In this document: positions 23,150-63,686 of the stretch, in pieces
Layout of the letters: the number at the start of each line of letters is the position of its first letter
How positions within the stretch are numbered: position 1 is the first letter of the stretch
Assembly: GCF_009729055.1 (NCBI RefSeq)
Contig: NZ_CP045484.1
Location: 1,922,001 to 1,986,000, forward strand
Reading direction: 5' to 3'
Source of the DNA: Sulfurisphaera ohwakuensis
GTDB taxonomy: Archaea > Thermoproteota > Thermoprotei_A > Sulfolobales > Sulfolobaceae
DNA: 64,000 nt
Translations under genes and position numbers: made by a program
The notes under the pieces: generated by a model
Seen by the model: only the letters and a program-made list of their open reading frames with translations
Told to the model about the DNA's origin: nothing
Databases searched by the model: none

Positions 23150-23940
23150 TTAACGCAGCTTAAAGATTTTCATCAAACCTAGTGCCCCCTAAACGAATTT
23201 CAACGAACCGGAGAAACTCCTCCACGCTCTTCAAGTTAGGGGGTGTTCTCAAACAGTCATCTTATTCGATAACTTATTGCAAAATTATATCAGATTTTCT
23301 CTAATATTCAATACTCCCCTCAAGTAAGCCTCGTTCAAGGGAGTCTTCTCCCTTGAAAAACACATGGGGATACATGACATTAAGTAAGGCAAGACTATAA
23401 TCAACCATTCTCTCACTCCTATTAACAGCCCTAGTGTCCCTAGCTAACCTAGCCAAATGAGCCCTACAGTAAGAGTTATAACTTTCAACCATGTAAGTGT
23501 ATTTCTTACTTGCAACGTGATTATCAAGAACTTGATAAACAGAGTAATCATCAGTATAATTAACTCTTAGGCAGAGAATTCAATAGAAAGCTGAAAGTCT
23601 TATAATCCCTATTACCCGTAGTGAAGAAGGGAGCACCATCAGCTAAAGCATTCCAAATCCACACCCTCTTGGGACCATGCCTAAGATAAGTCCGACTCTC
23701 GTCAATTACCGTGACTTTTGCGGTAAAGCTCTTTAGTTGTTCTTGTAGGACTAATAGATTAACATATGCCTCTATTCCCTTTCTCTTTATCAGACTGTGG
23801 TTAAAGGCTTTCCTTCAACCTTTGCTATTCCCCTTATGCTCGCCCTATTCAAGTACTCCTTCAAGATCTTCTCCTTTTGTTCTCTACTCATCTTGTGATT
23901 AGATGTTTGGTAGAATGTTCTTTCACACGTTTTGCACTTG
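23150..23940 (-). pseudogene. IS1-family transposase remnant, split by IS5 copy A
   Basis: Reading the minus strand, the N-terminal zinc-ribbon part (VKCKTCERTFYQTSNHKMSR, then EQKEKILKEYLNRASIRGIA) is followed by LLVLQEQLKSFTAKVTVIDE and YLRHGPKRVWIWNALADG. It ends with SYNSYCRAHLARLARDTRAV and ERMVDYSLALLNVMYPHVFF. This is the IS1 family order. Frames shift at least twice (near 23580 and 23800). The N-terminus is cut at VKC by the IS5-family copy starting at 23936. Near 23185-23243 an 8-bp hairpin (CCCCCTAA/TTAGGGGG) marks the far end. Confidence 0.65.
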
Positions 23941-25066
23941 ACGTTGTCTAACTTGAGCAAAATTGAAAAATTATCCTGACTATAATATTTCTTTCTATAA
24001 AATTATTCATAATATTTAACTAGAAAAGATTATATAATATGTATTAATAAATATAATACAAATAATTGTACAGTTTTGCAATAAAATTCGTTATACTCAC
24101 AACTAAAACTAGTAAGCAAGCCTTGTTAATTAACTAGTACCCTTGTCCTAATCCTCGTTAAGAGTACTTCAAGATTACGATAGAGGTTAAGGAAGAAGAC
24201 CTCTATCACAACACCCCTCAAAGTCGTTACAGAAGCCTTACCTTCCCTAATCTTAACCCCTCAACCTGAAGCCTAGCAGAACTAACACCAGGCCCTATCA
24301 GCCATTAACTTAACGCCATCAAAGGAAAAGGCCAAATCACTCAAATTAGCCAACCTTAAAACCCCTAACAAAATTAGTCCTCCTTTCAACAAACCTTAAA
24401 GCCAAAGTAGGACTTACCATGCTTCCTACCCCAACCACCCTTATACTTCCTAAATCTTGTAAAATACTTGAGCTTAGAAACAGTATAACCCATGAGGAGA
24501 AAATCGTCGTCAATCTCATCAAGATCAAGTGAGATCTTCTCTAGACCAGTTTGAAAACTCCTCTTCCCCTCACGGAAGAATCGATTATGTGGTAGTCCTC
24601 GAATTTGTCGTTTTTTCTCTCCCTACCTCAAGTTCTTTCTCTATACTCTTTGATCACCTTGTCTAAGGCCTTGTTTATCCATTAGGGTTGTCCACATTGT
24701 TTCTCCCTCATCGACAACTGTTTCTTGTAATCTCTTATAGAAGAAGAATATTGTACCCTTTGGTGGGACTTTCCCACCCAAGAATTTCATGAACATTTTA
24801 CTATCCCTAATTTCTCCCTCTAAGTTATTCCAAGAGATATCGTAGACGAAATTGATTAAGAGTGTTTTGAGGAGTAATATAACGTCCCACTTGGGTTTCT
24901 TGGAGTAATTCAAGTTTACTCCTAAACGTTTCCCATGGAAATACTTTATCAACCTTGAGCAAAAGGTCTTTCTCAGTTGAAAGTGACTTCATAATATTAT
25001 CTCATCTCAATTCTTATTAATATTACTCATCAATTTCCATTTTTATCATCTTAGACAACATCACGT
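23936..25066 (-). mobile_element. IS5-family element, copy A (1131 bp, frame-broken)
   Basis: This copy differs at only a handful of positions from copy B at 46794-47924. The ends are near-perfect 13-bp inverted repeats (ACTTGACGTTGTC at the left, GACAACATCACGT at the right). On the minus strand the transposase starts MKSLSTEKDLLLKVDKVFPW (near 24992) and shifts frame. It continues as KPKWDVILLLKTLLINFVYD (24641-24952) and then, after another shift, DDDFLLMGYTVSKLKYF. The pattern fits IS5 (DUF772-type N-terminus). It cannot make a full transposase. The right end lies about 50 bp before the PaREP1 copy 3 start. Confidence 0.75.
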
Positions 25067-30643: not shown

Positions 30644-31387
30644 TTCGATCTCTTTTTAAATTGACTACTTTGTTTACGGCATTCAATAAAATATATAAGA
30701 CGTTATTTAATGATAAATCGTACCTATAAATTCCCTTGATTCTCACAATTGAATATGGGTCTATCATTCCAAGCTTAAAATAAAGAAGATAATCCCTGTA
30801 AATTTTTAACAAATCATAAAAATAAATTCCTCTACTGTGAATAGAATCTATAGCGACTCTAATCAATCTAAGTTTACCATAATGAAGTTCACGAACTATA
30901 GTAGGAGCGACTCTTAGATTCTTATTAATTATGCTTGGAACGTATATATCAAAACCTACTCTCGATATTAATCCGGTATCTTCACCATTATTTAAATCGT
31001 ACCAATTACCATGACTAATTATTCTCTCTTTTTGAAATTAGAAAGTAAGGTGCTGAGGGAAAAACAAGCATATATTTTATCTAATGAGGCGTAATCTAAC
31101 ACTTTGTTAAAGTTTTCGTTATAATCTGTGTCTAGGTCGAAGTATGCTGTTATTAAGTTTTCTGGGCAGTGTTCTAATATATAAGCCCTACCCTTAGCTC
31201 TACTACTCTTTAACCTTAGTAAAGTTAAATTATATTCCTTCCTCAGTTCTTGTAACTTCTCCCAACTACCGTCTGTGGAATAATTATCGGCAATAATAAT
31301 ATGATAATTCGACCTCCAAAAAGACATGACACTAGTGTCAACAGAGCTAACATTATTAAAAGCTGTACTATAAACACAAATAATCAT
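30633..31387 (-). pseudogene. GT2-family glycosyltransferase, frameshifted by a dinucleotide
   Basis: The first part (31387 down to 31019) encodes CVYSTAFNNVSSVDTSVMSF, YHIIIADNYSTDGSWEKLQE and ITAYFDLDTDYNENF, which is a GT2 fold with DLD. The frame ends with FKKRE. The second part, in another frame, continues IISHGNWYDLNNGEDTGLIS with the acidic ED, then RVGFDIYVPSIINKNLRVA down to 30633. Removing one AG from an AGAGAG run (31024-31029 on the plus strand) would join the frames exactly (FKKRIISHGNWYDL). This makes it a slippage frameshift, either a real mutation or an assembly error. It overlaps the 82-residue gene by 11 bp. Confidence 0.7.
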
Positions 31388-31392
31388 TTCCT

Positions 31393-33180
31393 TTATCTCT
31401 TGTATATTATCCAGCCTTGCATGTACATTGCATCAAATCCTTTAACCGCAAAGCTCCTCAAAGCATCTTGAGGAGTCTCAACTAAGGGCTCTCCGGCAAG
31501 GTTAAAGGAAGTATTCATAATTAACCCCTCACCCTTTATATCCTTAAAAGTCTTGATCAAATCATACCAAGTCCTATTCTGATCCCTAGTAACAGTTTGT
31601 GGCCTTGCAGTCAAATCAACGTGGCAAGTTACTGGAACTCTTTTACAAACCTCCTCATCCTTATAACGTAACATCAAAATCATGAACTCATGAGATGTTG
31701 GGTCTTTAAAATAAACATCCTTATCCTCATCAAGCAAAGAAGGTGCTAAAGGCCTCCACCATTCCCTACCCTTAATATCATTCACAAGTCTCCAATAATC
31801 CTTCCTAGTCGGATCAGCAACAATTGAACGATTACCCAAAGCCCTAGGGCCCAACTCAGCCCTACCTTGATACCAAGTAACAATACCACCCTTAGTAATA
31901 ATATCAGCAATAGCATTAACATCATCACCAACATACTCGGCCCTAAACTTACTATCTTGAACAACCTTCTTAATTACCTCTTCATCATATTCTGGCCCTA
32001 AATAAACGTTCTTAAGCCTACCGTGAACCATCTTACCTCCCAAAACATGCTCATAAACGTAAGCAGCAGCACCAATAGGCCCACCAGCATCATTAGCAGC
32101 CGGGAAAATGAAAACTTCGTTGAACATGCGGGAGTAATAAAGCTCCATATTAGCCTTAGCATTCAAAGCAACACCACCAGCCAAAGCAACCCTATCCTCA
32201 TCAGTATGAGACTTAGCCCACTTTGCCGTAGCAAGAACTGCTTCTTCAGTTATCTTCTGTACTGCCCAAGCTATATTGACAGCGTCTTCGTTTAGTTCCC
32301 CTCTGGGATTCCAGTTAAGAACCTTAGTGCGTATTACCTTCTCTGCTATGTCGTAATAGACTGAAAGGATCTTTATTAGATCCTTGCTCTTTACAACTTT
32401 CCCGTTACTATAAATAGTATAAGGTTCATCACCATCTGGGTTAATCTTGACAAATTCCTTAAGCTTATCGTAATAACGTGAAGGTTTACCGTAAGGTGCT
32501 AAACCCATACCCTTTCCTGGGCCTTCAAGTCTACCCAGCTTTATTCCTTGCATTAGTTTCTCATAAAGAAATCCTAAGGAAGCGTAAGATGCATACATGG
32601 AAAGTATTGGCTCAAAATTCCCGTCCTTAACTTTCCAAATAACAGTAGACTCGTATTCACCCGCTCCGTCAATCGTTAAGACAGTAGCGGAGTTAAAACC
32701 GGAGAAGTAATATGCCGAGGCTGCGTGAGCTAAATGATGTCTAACCGGGTATATCTTAATCTCTGAAGGAATTTCTTCTCCTATATCAATAATAGCTTTC
32801 TTGATTAATTGTTCCGCCAATTTCATATAATCTCCTTTAACTAAATCCAGAGCATACGACGTTAAACCTTCCTCAAAATCTAGTGCCCCATAAGAGAACA
32901 TTCCGATTACTGAGCCTAAATAGGCTCTAAATCTGCGATCTTTAACTGAAAAGAGTGAAGGATCCCAATTTACTGCATAAGCATCAACATCCTTAGGTTT
33001 AATCCCTTGTTTTTTCAGGAATTTAAAAGCCTCTTTAAGGGAATTTAATGGAGGCTCGCCTTCTGAATGCTTATGCCTAGTGAACCTCTCCTCTTCTGCG
33101 GCAAATACTAATTTTCCATCTAAAATTACTGCTGTTGCGTGATCATGTTCAACTGGCCATTGAAAACCGATTACTATCAT
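31393..33180 (-). CDS. Carbamoyltransferase (NodU/CmcH family), copy 1
   Basis: A 595-residue enzyme that should transfer carbamoyl from carbamoyl phosphate to a sugar hydroxyl. The N-terminal part has MIVIGFQWPVEHDHATAVIL, EEERFTRHKHSEGEPP and YPVRHHLAHAASAYYFSGF with the conserved HxxH. The second has ALAGGVALNAKANMELYYSR and PAANDAGGPIGAAAYVYEH. The C-terminal domain has AELGPRALGNRSIVADP and FNLAGEPLVETPQDALRSF. The frame is intact, unlike copy 2 at 55143. The 3' half matches copy 2 almost base for base. The GT2 gene follows after a few bases. Confidence 0.9.
   Translation of the reverse strand: MIVIGFQWPVEHDHATAVILDGKLVFAAEEERFTRHKHSEGEPPLNSLKEAFKFLKKQGIKPKDVDAYAVNWDPSLFSVKDRRFRAYLGSVIGMFSYGALDFEEGLTSYALDLVKGDYMKLAEQLIKKAIIDIGEEIPSEIKIYPVRHHLAHAASAYYFSGFNSATVLTIDGAGEYESTVIWKVKDGNFEPILSMYASYASLGFLYEKLMQGIKLGRLEGPGKGMGLAPYGKPSRYYDKLKEFVKINPDGDEPYTIYSNGKVVKSKDLIKILSVYYDIAEKVIRTKVLNWNPRGELNEDAVNIAWAVQKITEEAVLATAKWAKSHTDEDRVALAGGVALNAKANMELYYSRMFNEVFIFPAANDAGGPIGAAAYVYEHVLGGKMVHGRLKNVYLGPEYDEEVIKKVVQDSKFRAEYVGDDVNAIADIITKGGIVTWYQGRAELGPRALGNRSIVADPTRKDYWRLVNDIKGREWWRPLAPSLLDEDKDVYFKDPTSHEFMILMLRYKDEEVCKRVPVTCHVDLTARPQTVTRDQNRTWYDLIKTFKDIKGEGLIMNTSFNLAGEPLVETPQDALRSFAVKGFDAMYMQGWIIYKR
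31394..32224 (-). repeat. Arm 1 of a 0.83-kb inverted repeat (carbamoyltransferase 3' half)
   Basis: The 3' half of the carbamoyltransferase gene, from AAGTGGGCTAAGTCTC to near the stop (ATAATATACAAGAG), is almost the same as 56097-56922 but in the opposite direction. A cluster of differences falls near the codons for VGDDVNAIADIITKGG. The 5' halves of the two genes are much more diverged, so the identity stops sharply at both ends. This is the pattern left by recombination or gene conversion. Confidence 0.85.
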
Positions 33181-33293
33181 AATGTTTATAACTATTTATA
33201 ACCGTATATTAACTTTTTCTAGGTAGTAACACAATGATGTAATTCTTAAAGGTTTACGCTAGATTTATAAATCTTAATAATTTAATAATCCGC

Positions 33294-34058
33294 GTGAAAA
33301 ACTTAGCCTTTCTTATTATGTTAAGTGATAAATATTACAATGCGGGCACAAAGCCATTTGTTGATATTTCATTAGGCCTCGCTAAAAAGGGTTATAATCC
33401 TTATTTACTCTTCTTTCGCTCTGCTTCATATAGCGACGTTAAAAATAAGTTTCCACAATTACAAGCGTATATATTTGATAGTATGGATAAAATTAATAAG
33501 TTCATAGAGAAGAAAAATATAGAAATAGTAATTTCTGACGATTTTATATATAGATTAAAAATTTTTAAGAAAATAAAGAGTAAACATAAGGTAATTTATG
33601 TGCAACATATTACTGGCATAAGTATTATGAATGATTTATCGAATAAACAGAATATAAAACTTAGGTTAGCGTCGTACTTACCGTGGAAATTAGTAATTAG
33701 AAATTACGTTAGACTCCTTAGAAACGCAGACGTTATAATAGGAAATTCACTTACTACAACACATTACCTATCATCATTATTCGGAATAAGCAGTTCTGGT
33801 GTAGTTTACCCACCTGTAGGTGTCGATTTACATCTTACTAAAGTAGGTACAAGAAAAGGAATTTTAGTTTTTAAAGGACACAAACCTGATTTTCATGTTA
33901 GAAACCTAGAATCTGACCTTAAAGTACTGAGAGAAGTAGACGAGGTATTAATATGGGGAGAAGGAGGATTAGAAAATATACGTGATGATGATTTATCAAG
34001 ACTTTATTCTAGTGTAAAATTAGTATATTCTTCCACTTCTTTTGAACTCTTATGTTAG
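33294..34058 (+). pseudogene. GT4-family glycosyltransferase, C-terminally truncated
   Basis: A 254-residue product from a GTG start, with a GT-B N-terminal half (DISLGLAKKGYNPYLLFFRS, YVQHITGISIMNDL, ADVIIGNSLTTTHYLSS, VVYPPVGVDL). The frame stops at YSSTSFELLC, just where GT4 enzymes continue with the G-x-x-x-x-E-A-M/L donor-binding segment. The last domain (about 100 residues) is therefore missing. No continuation was found in the 90 bp before the next gene. It is probably a broken gene. Confidence 0.65.
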
Positions 34059-46648: not shown

Positions 46649-46793
46649 AAGTTAATCTACTCAATTCTCCCTATAATACTTTTCCCAAAGAACTCCTCAA
46701 GGCCTTACTTAAGGCTAAGGAAAACTACTTGAGCAGACTAGGAAACGAGGGATAGAAGAGCCTTGAGAGCCTTGAACCACATCAATGTTAAAG

Positions 46794-47924
46794 ACGTGAC
46801 GTTGTCCAACTTGAGCAAAATTGAAAAATTATCCTGACTATAATATTTCTTTCTATAAAATTATTCATAATATTTAACTAGAAAAGATTATATAATATGT
46901 ATTAATAAATATAATACAAATAATTGTACAGTTTTGCAATAAAATTCGTTATACTCACAACTAAAACTAGTAAGCAAGCCTTGTTAATTAACTAGTACCC
47001 TTGTCCTAATCCTCGTTAAGAGTACTTCAAGATTACGATAGAGGTTAAGGAAGAAGACCTCTATCACAACACCCCTCAAAGTCGTTACAGAAGCCTTACC
47101 TTCCCTAATCTTAACCCCTCAACCTGAAGCCTAGCAGAACTAACACCAGGCCCTATCAGCCATTAACTTAACGCCATCAAAGGAAAAGGCCAAATCACTC
47201 AAATTAGCCAACCTTAAAACCCCTAACAAAATTAGTCCTCCTTTCAACAAACCTTAAAGCCAAAGTAGGACTTACCATGCTTCCTACCCCAACCACCCTT
47301 ATACTTCCTAAATCTTGTAAAATACTTGAGCTTAGAAACAGTATAACCCATGAGGAGAAAATCGTCGTCAATCTCATCAAGATCAAGTGAGATCTTCTCT
47401 AGACCAGTTTGAAAACTCCTCTTCCCCTCACGGAAGAATCGATTATGTGGTAGTCCTCGAATTTGTCGTTTTTTCTCTCCCTACCTCAAGTTCTTTCTCT
47501 ATACTCTTTGATCACCTTGTCTAAGGCCTTGTTTATCCATTAGGGTTGTCCACATTGTTTCTCCCTCATCGACAACTGTTTCTTGTAATCTCTTATAGAA
47601 GAAGAATATTGTACCCTTTGGTGGGACTTTCCCACCCAAGAATTTCATGAACATTTTACTATCCCTAATTTCTCCCTCTAAGTTATTCCAAGAGATATCG
47701 TAGACGAAATTGATTAAGAGTGTTTTGAGGAGTAATATAACGTCCCACTTGGGTTTCTTGGAGTAATTCAAGTTTACTCCTAAACGTTTCCCATGGAAAT
47801 ACTTTATCAACCTTGAGCAAAAGGTCTTTCTCAGTTGAAAGTGTCTTCATAATATTATCTCATCCCAATTCTTATTAATATTACTCATCAATTTCCATTT
47901 TTATCATCTTAGACAACGTCACGT
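46794..47924 (-). mobile_element. IS5-family element, copy B (1131 bp, frame-broken)
   Basis: The two ends are perfect 13-bp inverted repeats: ACGTGACGTTGTC (46794-46806) and GACAACGTCACGT (47912-47924). An alternative reading is a 9-bp terminal repeat flanked by a 4-bp target duplication ACGT. The copy matches copy A (23936-25066) with few differences, and carries the same frame breaks in its minus-strand transposase (47499-47810 holds KPKWDVILLLKTLLINFVYD). It is inserted in the front part of the IS4-like gene. Confidence 0.8.
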
Positions 47925-55142: not shown

Positions 55143-56927
55143 ATGACAATAGTAGTAGGCTTTAATTTCCCAGTGATACATGATAATGCAATAGCTATTA
55201 TACAAGATGGCAAATTGATTTTTGCAACAGAAGAGGAAAGATTTACTAGACATAAACACTCTATTGCCGAACCACCTATTAACGCATTAATTCAGGGATT
55301 TAAGTTTTTAGCTAAGCAAGGTATTAAGCCCAGCGATATTGATGCTTATGCTGTAAATTTTAATCCTAAATTTTATCCTAAAAGAACGAGAGATCACTTT
55401 TATAAGAATATGTATTTATTATCTGTGAAGTTCGGTTTTAAACCATATATTTTAGAGGCAATAAAGGAATACATATTATCTTATTTATTTAGAATTCCAA
55501 CATATATGGAATTTGCTAAAAGAATTATAATTCACAGTATTAGAGAAGCTGGATTTAATATTTCTGAAAATCAAATAAAAATCTATCCAGTTGAACACCA
55601 TTTGACTCATGCTGCATCTGCATACTATTTTTCTGGATTTAATTCTGCAACAGTTTTAACAATTGATGGTTGGGGTGAAATAGATTCTACAGTAATCTGG
55701 AAAGTTAAAAGCGGCGAATTCGAAAAAATATCAAGCATACCTGCATATTATGGCTCAATTGGTGCTTTATGGGATTTCGTATCTCAAAATCTAAACTTTG
55801 GGATTCTTGAAGGGCCAGGCAAAGTTATGGGGTTAGCACCATATGGTCACGAGAATTTATTATATAAGAGGAAATTTGATGAATTATTGGAGATTAGCGA
55901 TGATAAATACCCGTATGTCTTATCTTCAAAATATAGTGAAGTTTTCATTGATTTAGAGAAACAGTACCAGGTTATTGCGGACTATATCACTGGTGGCAAG
56001 ATTGATTGGAACCCTAGGGGTCAAATTGATCAACGTGCAGCGGATATAGCATATGAACTACAGAGATTTACTGACAACTTACTTATTCACATAGGCAAGT
56101 GGGCTAAGTCTCATACTGATGAGGATAGGGTTGCTTTGGCTGGTGGTGTTGCTTTGAATGCTAAGGCTAATATGGAGCTTTATTACTCCCGCATGTTCAA
56201 CGAAGTTTTCATTTTCCCGGCTGCTAATGATGCTGGTGGGCCTATTGGTGCTGCTGCTTACGTTTATGAGCATGTTTTAGGTGGTAAGATGGTTCACGGT
56301 AGGCTTAAGAACGTTTATTTAGGGCCAGAATATGATGAAGAGGTAATTAAGAAGGTTGTTCAAGATAGTAAGTTTAGGGCCGAGTATATTGGTGATGATG
56401 TTAATGCTGTTGCCGATATTGTTGCCAAGGGTGGTATTGTTACTTAGTATCAAGGTAGGGCTGAGTTAGGCCCTAGGGCTTTGGGTAATCGTTCAATTGT
56501 TGCTGATCCGACTAGGAAGGATTATTGGAGACTTGTGAATGATATTAAGGGTAGGGAATGGTGGAGGCCTTTAGCACCTTCTTTGCTTGATGAGGATAAG
56601 GATGTTTATTTTAAAGACCCAACATCTCATGAGTTCATGATTTTGATGTTACGTTATAAGGATGAGGAGGTTTGTAAAAGAGTTCCAGTAACTTGCCACG
56701 TTGATTTGACTGCAAGGCCACAAACTGTTACTAGGGATCAGAATAGGACTTGGTATGATTTGATCAAGACTTTTAAGGATATAAAGGGTGAGGGGTTAAT
56801 TATGAATACTTCCTTTAACCTTGCCGGAGAGCCCTTAGTTGAGACTCCTCAAGATGCTTTGAGGAGCTTTGCGGTTAAAGGATTTGATGCAATGTACATG
56901 CAAGGCTGGATAATATACAAGAGGTGA
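55143..56927 (+). pseudogene. Carbamoyltransferase (NodU/CmcH family), copy 2, with internal TAG
   Basis: The gene would encode about 594 residues, like copy 1. It reads through GFNFPVIHDNAIAIIQDGKL, EEERFTRHKHSIAEPP and YPVEHHLTHAASAYYFSGF, then reaches KGGIVT and a TAG (56445-56447). Copy 1 has TGG (Trp) at this place (KGGIVTWYQGRAELG). After the TAG the frame continues intact to a normal stop. The N-terminal half differs from copy 1, but the 3' half is nearly the same. A single base change therefore inactivates it. Read-through or a sequence error are alternatives. A methyltransferase gene follows after 4 bp. Confidence 0.85.
56097..56922 (+). repeat. Arm 2 of the 0.83-kb inverted repeat
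   Basis: The partner of 31394-32224 in the opposite orientation. Almost all differences cluster around 56390-56447, including the TAG. The rest is nearly identical, including most wobble positions, so the match is recent. This excludes simple protein conservation as the cause. Confidence 0.85.
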
Positions 56928-56931
56928 AAAA

Positions 56932-57720
56932 ATGAAGGTATTCAAAGTTAAGGGAATAAAAATATTTTATGATGAGAAGCTGGACGGTGGAGGGACTAGT
57001 TTTGGGCAACTCTATGTACCAATTATAAGAAGGCTTATAGGAAAATCTAAAACATGTTTTGAGGCTTTTTCCGGTCCGGCATTTATAGGTTTCTCTTTAT
57101 TAGCTCACGGCTTATGTGAGGAGTTGGTAGTAGCTGATATAAATCCTGAGGCCATTAATTATGTCAAATTAACTGTTAACGAGAATAAATTAGAAGATAA
57201 AGTAAGATATTATATTTCTGATGTACTTGATGGAATTCCAGAAGGTGAAAAATTTGATTTAGTGGTAGGTAATCCTCCTCATTTCAATGAAAGTACACTA
57301 GAAAATTATTGTAGAAGGGCTACGTGCGATCAAATTGATTTATTAAAATCTTATGATTCTGGATGGAATTTACATAGGAGGTTTTATTTAAATATTCGCA
57401 AGTTCTTAAATGATAAGGCAAACGTGATACTAGTTGAAAATTCTGAAGGGTCTAACGTAAAGGACTTTTTAGAGATGATAAATGAAGGAGGGCTTAAATA
57501 TGTAAGAGTTATAAAGCCGGAAACTGAGGATATCATTTACACATCATATATACATATAAGAGGATTAAATCTTAATGTAGGCATTTCAAGGAGAGTGAAA
57601 AGATTACCATATGGAATATATAAGCTAGCGTTTCCATTTGGAGAAAAAACTCATTATAAACCACTTATTGATTATATTAACTTTATGTCAAAATTTTATT
57701 TTATATGGAGTAGAACTTAA
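56932..57720 (+). CDS. AdoMet-dependent methyltransferase with NPPH motif
   Basis: A 262-residue class I enzyme. TCFEAFSGPAFIGFSLLAHG holds the AdoMet-binding loop, ELVVADINPEAINYVKLTV the acidic end of strand 2, and DLVVGNPPHFNES the NPP-x catalytic segment found in enzymes that methylate amide or ring nitrogens. GAGGTGA precedes the ATG at 56932 and overlaps the end of the carbamoyltransferase gene, so the two are an operon. The substrate is unknown. It may act on the glycan product or be a tag-along gene. Confidence 0.72.
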   Translation: MKVFKVKGIKIFYDEKLDGGGTSFGQLYVPIIRRLIGKSKTCFEAFSGPAFIGFSLLAHGLCEELVVADINPEAINYVKLTVNENKLEDKVRYYISDVLDGIPEGEKFDLVVGNPPHFNESTLENYCRRATCDQIDLLKSYDSGWNLHRRFYLNIRKFLNDKANVILVENSEGSNVKDFLEMINEGGLKYVRVIKPETEDIIYTSYIHIRGLNLNVGISRRVKRLPYGIYKLAFPFGEKTHYKPLIDYINFMSKFYFIWSRT

Positions 57721-58247: not shown

Positions 58248-59657
58248 ATGAATCCAATAAAGAACGCGTTAAAGAGCCTTAGCGTGACAACAACAAACGT
58301 CATAGTGGCTTTAATCTTCTTTATCATTACCGCAAAGATTTCAAACCCAGCCTTCTTCGGGAAAGTTGCAATTATTCAGCTTTTAGAAGTTATAACTTCG
58401 GCTTTCTTTTACTTCATACCTGGGCAGATTATTACGAGGGAAATTTCCTACCTTTACGCTAGGAAAGAGGTAAATAAGGACGTAATAGGTAAGTTTATTT
58501 CCTTACCTTTTCTATCTTTTCCAGTTTTTCTAGTCTTGTTACTCTTTCCTACTTACGTTAAGTTAGCAATACCTTACCTTTTCCTATACTTACTGGGCGG
58601 AGTGCTTAATTCAATCATGATAGGAATGGATATGTTCACAGAGACTGCCATTGCCGGCAATTTATTCTTAATAATTAGATGGGGAATCTCAATACTTGCC
58701 GTTCTTCAGCACAATATATACCTATTCGTAGAAATATGGACTTTAGGAGGGATAATTTCAGACTCTCTAGGTTATTTCTTTATAATAAAAAAAATAGGTT
58801 TTGTTTACCCCCTTCTATACCTTCCCTTCTTATTTAAGCATTTTAGGGAAGGCCTTCCGCTCTATTTATCCTCATTAGCAGGCTTTTTCTCCTCGCAAGG
58901 TGATAGAGTAACTACTGCTTACTTGTTAGGTTCCTACTACTTAGGCATTTACCAATTTTCTGCATTAGTTGCCGGAGTACCTTCAATGGTTTTAGGTGCA
59001 TTGGGTGGAGTTCTTTTGCCTACAGCTTCATTTTATAAAGCATTGGGTAAGGACGAGAGGAGAATGTCTTCAATTTCCTTTCGTTTGCTCTCTTTAATTT
59101 CCTTTTTAGCAGTAATAATTTCTATACCCGTCGCCATCGTCGTTGTTGATAAATTCTTCCCAGCTTATGAGGGTGGAATAGAGGCTTTAATACTTTTACT
59201 TTTAGCTACGACACTTCCTTTTCCGATAGGATCCTTAGTCAATTTTATTGTAGCGTCTAAGAAGGATTTAAGGCCGTTTCTAGTTCTCTCAATTCTTAAC
59301 GGAGGTTTGACACTGTTAACCTCTTTTCTCCTGATACCTAGGCTAGGTATTGTAGGCGGAGCTATTTCCCAGATAATAGTCTCTATAATCTCTTCGTCCT
59401 TCATAGTGTTCTACGCTTTAAGGACTTCAACTTTTATACCTTCAAGGAAAGAGATCATGCTACTACTAGCTATGCCTTTAATAGGGGTTTACGAAGTGTT
59501 TGTTGATCCTCCGTTCCTAGATTTAATACTTCTCCTTTTAGTTATCTTAATTTTTAAAGCGTTTAAAGTAATAGAAAAGGAAGACGTAAAATTGGTTGAA
59601 TCGTTTTTGTCGTCTAAACTTAAGTTTATATCTTATATTTTGCGGTTAATTAATTGA
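58248..59657 (+). CDS. Wzx-like polysaccharide flippase (MATE/RfbX superfamily)
   Basis: A 469-residue membrane protein with about twelve to fourteen helices. It begins MNPIKNALKSLSVTTTNVIV and FFIITAKISNPAFFGKVAII, the usual start of a flippase with a short cytosolic N-terminus. Near the middle is FREGLPLYLSSLAGFFSSQG, then GDRVTTAYLLGSYYLGIYQF, the repeated half. It should move lipid-linked glycan to the outside. The ATG at 58248 is in the frame of the protein, the one at 58244 is not. Confidence 0.85.
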   Translation: MNPIKNALKSLSVTTTNVIVALIFFIITAKISNPAFFGKVAIIQLLEVITSAFFYFIPGQIITREISYLYARKEVNKDVIGKFISLPFLSFPVFLVLLLFPTYVKLAIPYLFLYLLGGVLNSIMIGMDMFTETAIAGNLFLIIRWGISILAVLQHNIYLFVEIWTLGGIISDSLGYFFIIKKIGFVYPLLYLPFLFKHFREGLPLYLSSLAGFFSSQGDRVTTAYLLGSYYLGIYQFSALVAGVPSMVLGALGGVLLPTASFYKALGKDERRMSSISFRLLSLISFLAVIISIPVAIVVVDKFFPAYEGGIEALILLLLATTLPFPIGSLVNFIVASKKDLRPFLVLSILNGGLTLLTSFLLIPRLGIVGGAISQIIVSIISSSFIVFYALRTSTFIPSRKEIMLLLAMPLIGVYEVFVDPPFLDLILLLLVILIFKAFKVIEKEDVKLVESFLSSKLKFISYILRLIN

Positions 59658-60910: not shown

Positions 60911-61768
60911 ATGCCTTACTACGCTTTTTCTGAACCATTTTTTATTCATGCCATTACTCACCTTCACGTTGGTTATGGCTCGTCTATAGAGGAGGAAATA
61001 GATTTACCGTTTCAAAGAGATGAGTTGGGTTATCCAACAATTTACGCTTCAAGTTTGAAAGGGGCGATAAAGTCATTTCTTTTAAAGGAATTTCCAAGTA
61101 GGAGAGACGTAATTTATAAGGTGTTGGGCGAGGATGAAAACCCAGAAGAGGCTTCATTAGGTACTTTTTTAGACGCGATACTTTTCGCGATACCTTCGAG
61201 GATTATCGAGATTAACAGTGGTTCATCTAACGTTTGGGTTTACGTCACTACGTACGAGCTCCTAAAGAAGGTTAAACTATATTTGGAATCAATTTCCCAA
61301 TTATCTAAAGTTTCTTTTAATTTGAAAAGTATAATTGATAGTATACTTTCTAACAAAGGAAAGAATATTATATTAAACAGTAACTCGAAAAGTGTTATTT
61401 TAAATGAGGACTTCTATGTTGAGTTAGAGGATTATACTGGTGATATTCCCAAGATAACTGATGACAAAATCCCATTGCTGGTGTTAGAAGATTCTATAGG
61501 GAGAGAAGTAATCAATAGGTCTTTAATTAGAGTTAGGAGGATAAGGATAGACAAGGATAGGAGGACTGTACAGACTGGGGGTTTGTGGTCTGAGGAATAC
61601 GTTCCTATGAAGACTATTTTCTTTTCAGCATTTTTAGGCAAGGAGAGTAAGGAGACTGCATTGTTTGTCAGTTGTATCTTAAGGAGTTTAAAATACATTA
61701 TCCTAGGCGGTAAGGAGACCATAGGAAAAGGAATAGTTGAGTTGAGGTGGGAAAGAGATGTCTTATGA
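60911..61768 (+). CDS. cmr4: Cmr4, backbone subunit of the type III-B complex (Cas7 family)
   Basis: A 285-residue RAMP protein. The motifs are HAITHLHVGYGSSIEEEIDL, PFQRDELGYPTIYASSLKGA and, at the end, LGGKETIGKGIVELRW. The start resembles the family stretch in which a conserved Asp cuts target RNA. Several copies form the backbone along the guide RNA and cut bound RNA every six nucleotides. It overlaps cmr5 by 11 bp. It is preceded by 45 bp that could hold a second promoter. Confidence 0.88.
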   Translation: MPYYAFSEPFFIHAITHLHVGYGSSIEEEIDLPFQRDELGYPTIYASSLKGAIKSFLLKEFPSRRDVIYKVLGEDENPEEASLGTFLDAILFAIPSRIIEINSGSSNVWVYVTTYELLKKVKLYLESISQLSKVSFNLKSIIDSILSNKGKNIILNSNSKSVILNEDFYVELEDYTGDIPKITDDKIPLLVLEDSIGREVINRSLIRVRRIRIDKDRRTVQTGGLWSEEYVPMKTIFFSAFLGKESKETALFVSCILRSLKYIILGGKETIGKGIVELRWERDVL

Positions 61769-62222: not shown

Positions 62223-63686
62223 ATGGAAGAGTTGTTAATGTCTTTTAAGCTGAAGGCTCTTTATCCGTTAACCGGAGGATATAATAGGCATAGCATAAAC
62301 CAGTTTTATGAAGAGAGTGTTAGGCCTACAGAGATTAAGGGATTGTGGAGGTGGTGGAATAGGGTTTTATTTAATACTGTAAGTCATGCTAATGGAGGTA
62401 AGCTCTATACTTATGATTCTATAGATAGACTTTTCGAGGACGTTTTTGGAGGAGAGAACATGAAGTCTGCAGTGAGGTTAGAGGTAATAAGTGATGAGGA
62501 TAACAATAATCGATTTGAGTTATTTGATGTAGAGTTAGATAAGGCAATAGATTGCTTAAAGAACTATAAGGGGAAAGTGACTGTAGACTTAAAAGATAAC
62601 GAAATAGTAATCAAAACAGAAAATTCCTCAATTCCTATAGTTTTTAAATCTAATTTAGATGTAAGTAAAATCAAGGATCTAGTGTACAATAATAAACTTC
62701 TTAACTTTGATCTCTTAGGTTTTAAGAGTATCTATATAGACACTACTAAAATTTCTAATAAAGAGATCCTCAGGGAAATTTTACGCGATTTAATTACGAA
62801 TTATTTAGAGTACTTTAACATTAAGCAAGAAGTCACATTTACTCTTAACATTTATTTAGATAAGAATCGTGAGAAAGTATACGAGAGTAACCAAAAGGTT
62901 AAGCAAAATTTTGGCTTTAATGATAAGCTTAAGTTTGCATTATACAGCTTATTAATTTTTATACTGCTTGGAGGGATTGGTAGAAAAGCTAATAGGGGAT
63001 TTGGTAGTTTGTCAATAGTAGATGTTAAGTGTTATGATAATATGTGTGAAGAAATAGAAAATTTAGCTAAAAGTTTTCTCTTAATTTGTAATGAAAACGA
63101 ATTAAGAGGCAAAATATATTCTATTTTAGATGGCGCTAAAAAGTTGTATGTTAATACACAATACTTTGGAAATAATTCACTATTGGAAATAGATCCTAAG
63201 AAAAATGTTGTATATTTCATAAATACTGACTTATTAGAGATCAGAAAGATAAAAAGTAAAGAGAAAGTATTAACTAATATTCCTAAGGCTGTATTATCAA
63301 ATGGAGATTGTATCAAATCTATTACTCAAATTCAAGATAAATATGCAAGAAAATCTTTCCTAGTAGCCTTTGGAGGGTATAGGGAACTTAAAAGAGATAT
63401 AAGATGGATCAAAAACTTTCTTTGCGAGACTTCTGAGACTGTTCCGTCATTTAATATAGTAGATTTTCCAGTTTCAGCTAATGAAGACTCATTCATGAGC
63501 AAGTACGTACTTTACCATAAACATAGGAGCTCATTACTAAGGTTTAAACTAATTAGTGATAAAAAAGATAACTCTTATCTTATTAATTATATTCTTTACT
63601 CATCCTACTTCAAAAAAATTGATATTAAATTAATTAGTGATATACTACGAGAATTAACTTCTTGTGTGATTCAAAATGACAATTGA
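62223..63686 (+). CDS. cmr1: Cmr1, RAMP subunit of the type III-B complex
   Basis: A 487-residue protein. MSFKLKALYPLTGGYNRHSI and VRPTEIKGLWRWWNRVLF (near residue 35) are the signature of Cmr1, which has two RAMP folds. GGIGRKANRGFGSLSIVDV near residue 250 is the glycine-rich loop of the first RAMP domain. In the complex Cmr1 sits at the 3' end of the guide. The ATG follows the cmr5 stop directly. It overlaps the next gene by 11 bp. Confidence 0.88.
   Translation: MEELLMSFKLKALYPLTGGYNRHSINQFYEESVRPTEIKGLWRWWNRVLFNTVSHANGGKLYTYDSIDRLFEDVFGGENMKSAVRLEVISDEDNNNRFELFDVELDKAIDCLKNYKGKVTVDLKDNEIVIKTENSSIPIVFKSNLDVSKIKDLVYNNKLLNFDLLGFKSIYIDTTKISNKEILREILRDLITNYLEYFNIKQEVTFTLNIYLDKNREKVYESNQKVKQNFGFNDKLKFALYSLLIFILLGGIGRKANRGFGSLSIVDVKCYDNMCEEIENLAKSFLLICNENELRGKIYSILDGAKKLYVNTQYFGNNSLLEIDPKKNVVYFINTDLLEIRKIKSKEKVLTNIPKAVLSNGDCIKSITQIQDKYARKSFLVAFGGYRELKRDIRWIKNFLCETSETVPSFNIVDFPVSANEDSFMSKYVLYHKHRSSLLRFKLISDKKDNSYLINYILYSSYFKKIDIKLISDILRELTSCVIQNDN

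Follow-up and report, generated by a model that had tools for sequence, protein, structure and literature searches.

Introduction

A paralogue that carries a nonsense mutation and has been subject to ectopic gene conversion is a recognised kind of gene, and hsdS-type systems and the shufflon are invertible gene-shuffling systems. The O-carbamoyltransferases of the TobZ/NodU family carry two domains, PF02543 and PF16861 (PDB 3ven and 3ver). In this study, we analysed a stretch of 64,000 nucleotides of the Sulfurisphaera ohwakuensis genome (NZ_CP045484.1, positions 1,922,001 to 1,986,000, hereafter the window), which contains two genes of this family, named copy 1 and copy 2, the second of which is interrupted by an in-frame TAG. 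Like a young nonsense pseudogene with ectopic conversion, the locus has an apparently private stop, an intact paralogue alongside, and identical tracts around a diverged patch; unlike in that case, the copies are inverted and their N-terminal halves are 48.6% identical in protein. With hsdS-type systems and the shufflon the locus shares different N-terminal parts on a common inverted part, and N-terminal types that appear to have been reassorted between species, whereas here a single orientation is known, from one genome of the species. In the literature searched, which lay mostly outside subscription papers, we found neither this stop nor any switching at the locus described.

Results

The two carbamoyltransferase genes

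The S. ohwakuensis genome is a single contig of 2,803,915 bases and contains two carbamoyltransferase genes (Pfam PF02543 and a search with the C part); the search of the genome for a third copy of the C part as a possible donor gave these two copies and none further. The two genes are inverted relative to each other and lie ~24 kb apart.

31393 to 33180, minus strand: copy 1, intact carbamoyltransferase of 595 aa, N-half type A (ORF; Pfam)
31397 to 32223, minus strand: arm of copy 1, counterpart of 56097-56923 (alignment)
55143 to 56927, plus strand: copy 2, carbamoyltransferase gene, N-half type B, broken by TAG and ending in TGA (ORF reading; Pfam)
56097 to 56923, plus strand: C-terminal arm of copy 2, almost identical to that of copy 1, with 10 differences in 827 bp (alignment)
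56388 to 56468, plus strand: most diverged patch of the arm, which holds the stop and, counting it, 8 of the 10 differences (alignment)
56445 to 56447, plus strand: in-frame TAG, which is TGG (Trp) in copy 1 (codon alignment)

Copy 1 carries Carbam_trans_N and Carbam_trans_C in one frame, as members of the TobZ/NodU family do. Copy 2 also matches both domains, one on each side of the stop, and is thus a broken member of the family in which the C domain would be lost. Its frame starts at ATG 55143, runs for 434 codons to the TAG, reopens at 56448, and ends at TGA 56925-56927. As the initial annotation had claimed, the aligned codons at 56445-56447 are TGG in copy 1 and TAG in copy 2, and the frame is open on both sides of a single internal stop, according to the frame reading and the alignment to copy 1; no further lesion was found over the whole frame (55143-56927).

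The part upstream of the TAG keeps the Carbam_trans_N match (11-371) in full; of the 170 positions that match Carbam_trans_C, about 11 are left. It is conceivable that this 434-aa fragment is functional, alone or together with a separately started C part, as in-frame TTG, GTG, and ATG codons are available downstream of the TAG. However, the first of them, a TTG at 56481, falls within the conserved stretch GPRALGNRS, so that its product would be missing 23 positions from the beginning of the C domain, and none of the broken relatives examined is split at the place of the TAG; we regard a functional fragment as barely credible. Alternatively, the TAG could be read through, by recoding as pyrrolysine or otherwise, to give the full protein, since the frame is open past the stop to the natural end. 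Against this, the PylS model gave three matches in the S. ohwakuensis genome, none over the cut-off, with a model that had matches in 13 of 14 control genomes and was over the cut-off in one of them, and TAG terminates 8 of the 36 ORFs chosen in the window. Furthermore, the accessible text of a review gives selenocysteine and pyrrolysine as the only cases in which stop codon read-through has been demonstrated in archaea (PMC8211752). Read-through is thus highly improbable.

The common arm

The inverted-repeat search gave arms of 927 nt that are 94% identical. Of the 54 differences, 42 fall in the first 95 bases (56002-56096), and the truly common arm is therefore 56097-56923, with 10 differences in 827 bp; two more lie at the very end, one in the natural stop codon and one in the codon before it. 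The arms of the two copies thus differ at 12 of 831 DNA columns. The claim that the stop lies within the most diverged stretch of the common arm holds, since eight of the ten differences are concentrated in the 81 bases of 56388-56468, flanked by 105 identical bases upstream and 455 identical bases downstream (Fisher p 2e-7, a value that is too favourable as the patch was picked post hoc). A single stop among the arm differences is not improbable in itself, because 115 of the 2484 possible single-base substitutions in the arm (4.6%) create a stop, and ten unselected differences would on average include ~0.5 stops.

Another conceivable source of such a stop is a single-base error of sequencing or assembly, given that one base only is concerned and that it lies in a near-identical repeat exceeding short-read length. 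However, the closed genome of S. ohwakuensis DSM 12421 is described as based on PacBio reads at 362x and paired 250-bp Illumina reads at 481x, the short reads serving for correction (PMC7067957), and copy-specific differences 20 bases before and 22 bases after the base make 250-base reads placeable. We therefore consider an error unlikely.

The codon in relatives

The codon was compared in the arm alignment, where nine rows from other genomes cover the site; G024 was excluded from the count as its remnant stops short of it. All nine rows have a sense codon (TGG in eight and TTC in one) and none has a stop. TGG is also the codon of G029, the relative nearest to copy 2 by its N half (62.6% identical there), and TobZ has Trp at the equivalent position. 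Farther off the Trp is not invariant, with Val in three, Trp in one, and Ile in one of five more distant loci, a count from which L032 was left out as it appears to duplicate G003. Among the sequences compared, the TAG is thus private and, to judge from this alignment, derived. Copy 2 therefore has a disabling lesion without counterpart in the relatives compared, by which nearly all of the C domain is gone, as in a pseudogene.

A scan of genome contigs gave two loci, one of which appears to be the G003 contig again, with equal length and match, while the other is distant, and plasmid relatives, being less than 60% identical in all 310 records, were not used. A viral origin of the arm was also considered; when viral contigs were scanned once with the part of the arm that precedes the stop, 17 stretches matched the pattern and none was confirmed as a relative.

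Recombination history of the two halves

Trees of the N and C halves were made from ten proteins, namely the two S. ohwakuensis copies and those of eight other genomes, G002 and G024 being left out as too short. In the N-half tree, copy 2 and G029 form a long-branched pair (100/100) and copy 1 groups with G012 (99/94), whereas in the C-half tree copy 1, copy 2, G012, and G029 fall in one clade (100/99), where copy 1 and copy 2 are paired at 84/95, a value under the support mark of the tool. By inspection of the topologies, the two trees disagree, and such a conflict between parts of a gene is what gene conversion would be expected to leave. The contrast between 12 differing columns of 831 in the arm and 48.6% protein identity in the N halves points the same way, so that the earlier claim of recombining arms is supported as far as sequence exchange is concerned.

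The evidence on the direction of conversion is mixed, because at the ten differing arm sites the relatives agree now with copy 1 and now with copy 2. Copy 1 and G012 differ at 35 of 831 columns in the arm and, over the N part, at 17 of 957 bases (p 0.003), with dS of 0.134 and 0.065, respectively; given this higher divergence of the arm, the sequences at hand speak against copy 2 having simply been overwritten by copy 1. Between the N half of copy 2 and G029, dN is 0.30 and dS is 1.57, the latter near saturation. Since the N half has thus been under constraint, the inactivation of copy 2 looks recent.

The surroundings of the two copies were also compared with those of the relatives.

31281 to 33985, no strand assigned: block collinear with G012 (taken as Saccharolobus caldissimus), 97.7% identical, containing copy 1 and both flanks (alignment)
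56932 to 57720, plus strand: small-domain methyltransferase gene, starting 5 bases past copy 2 (annotation); also adjoins in G030, with the match there split in two
58248 to 59657, plus strand: polysaccharide biosynthesis family membrane protein (domain match); also a neighbour in G030

The 2.7-kb block with copy 1 shows no break across either arm end or flank in comparison with G012, and its 97.7% identity to a different genus suggests a recent transfer between species. Copy 2 is collinear with G029 over 55144-56928, and its arm and the next gene are collinear with G030, which we take to be S. tokodaii, over 56097-57666; the stretch immediately upstream of copy 2 had no match in the G029 and G030 regions compared. 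The G030 gene that has the downstream neighbours of copy 2 carries a type-A N half, which is 66.7% identical to copy 1 and 46.6% identical to copy 2, in agreement with the N tree. N halves thus appear to have been reassorted between species at the copy-2 position, whether through crossing over at the arm, replacement, or some other route, and the low identity between the G030 N half and copy 1 would make the reassortment an old one. The exchange of N halves may even be older than the split of these species. Over 55143-56096, copy 2 and G029 have a deeply separate N-half type on the common C half, and G030 has type A.

It had also been proposed that the TAG marks a possible on/off state, where recombination between the arms, by conversion or inversion, moves or removes the stop. 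One or the other N-terminal type would then be made as a complete enzyme. Two N-terminal types on a near-identical inverted C arm, with arms that have exchanged sequence, would suit such a switch, as would the type-A N half at the copy-2 position of G030, the outcome to be expected if N halves were swapped at the arm, and the glycosyltransferase genes nearby, next to which variation of a surface glycan would make sense. However, copy 1 and both of its flanks are arranged as in G012, the stop is found in none of the nine rows from other genomes, and the copies differ most in the very 81-bp patch that bears the stop. The G030 N half, at just 66.7% identity to copy 1, reflects a difference between species that is old, and no recent flip. 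The exchange of sequence between the arms is therefore retained from the proposal; switching is unsupported by the unbroken flanks and the codons of relatives, with one genome of the species at hand, and we find it quite unlikely. An even number of inversions, or an inversion in part of the culture, is invisible to such a comparison of collinearity.

Decay of the gene in other Sulfolobaceae

Any match to copy 1 was found in 11 of 31 genomes of the family, S. ohwakuensis included, and several of these genes are broken in their own ways. A stretch of ~1.1 kb splits the G030 gene; it looks like an insertion sequence and has relatives in the repeated DNA that lies at 46.5-48.7 kb in the window. 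The G028 gene has a frame shift near residue 58, in an A-rich run, which could be an error in that genome. G002 is without about the first 330 residues and has the C part only, all that is left in G024 is ~70 residues spread over two frames, and G010 carries an extra fragment of 38 residues next to an intact gene. Different lesions in different species fit a gene that is dispensable in the family.

Discussion

Taken together, copy 2 is most probably a paralogue recently lost through a nonsense mutation, in a gene whose C half has undergone conversion in the past. In the simplest scenario, the locus would have held two TobZ/NodU-type carbamoyltransferases with different N-terminal halves among glycosyltransferase genes. 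Homologous gene conversion between the inverted copies would have homogenised the C-terminal halves, which is the likely cause of the pattern observed, and a G-to-A change would have made a TAG out of a Trp codon in copy 2, within a patch that was apparently not reached by the last homogenisation. Copy 2 would yield a fragment of 434 aa that is presumably inactive, copy 1 is still intact, and the loss would probably be tolerated as the gene seems dispensable in the family.

The private TAG, the Trp of TobZ at the same position, the loss of the C domain, the disagreement between the N and C trees, and the broken genes elsewhere argue, with good confidence, for loss. What counts against plain loss is that the lesion is alone, without further decay, and on sequence alone the stop may be functional or reversible. 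Furthermore, the reassortment of N halves between the copy-2 position and G030 is unexplained by plain decay. In a fuller form of the switch, recombination at the arms would reshuffle two N-terminal specificities together with an amber stop that is itself portable, and the cell would alternate its complete carbamoyltransferase, as a slow, recombinase-free switch of surface glycan carbamoylation. This form is very unlikely; clones or strains showing both states would mean switching by plain homologous recombination in an archaeon. Under the preferred reading, recent loss of copy 2, the case matters little as it is: one duplicate has been lost while conversion leaves the remainder looking intact.

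The neighbourhood of the two copies has some further features. Domain matches in the window place glycosyltransferase genes near the carbamoyltransferases. Both genes flanking copy 1, at 31019-31387 (Glycos_transf_2 match) and 33294-34058 (Glyco_transf_4, below the cut-off), look like shortened glycosyltransferases. Two RAMP-superfamily genes, presumably of the CRISPR type III kind, lie at 60911-61768 and 62223-63686, ~4 kb past copy 2, and RAMP homologues are found in G029 ~3.4 kb past the homologue of copy 2. Two related stretches at 23936-24862 and 46793-47720, which have a 300-nt part that is 99% identical and both match several places of G012 at 83-86%, look transposon-like.
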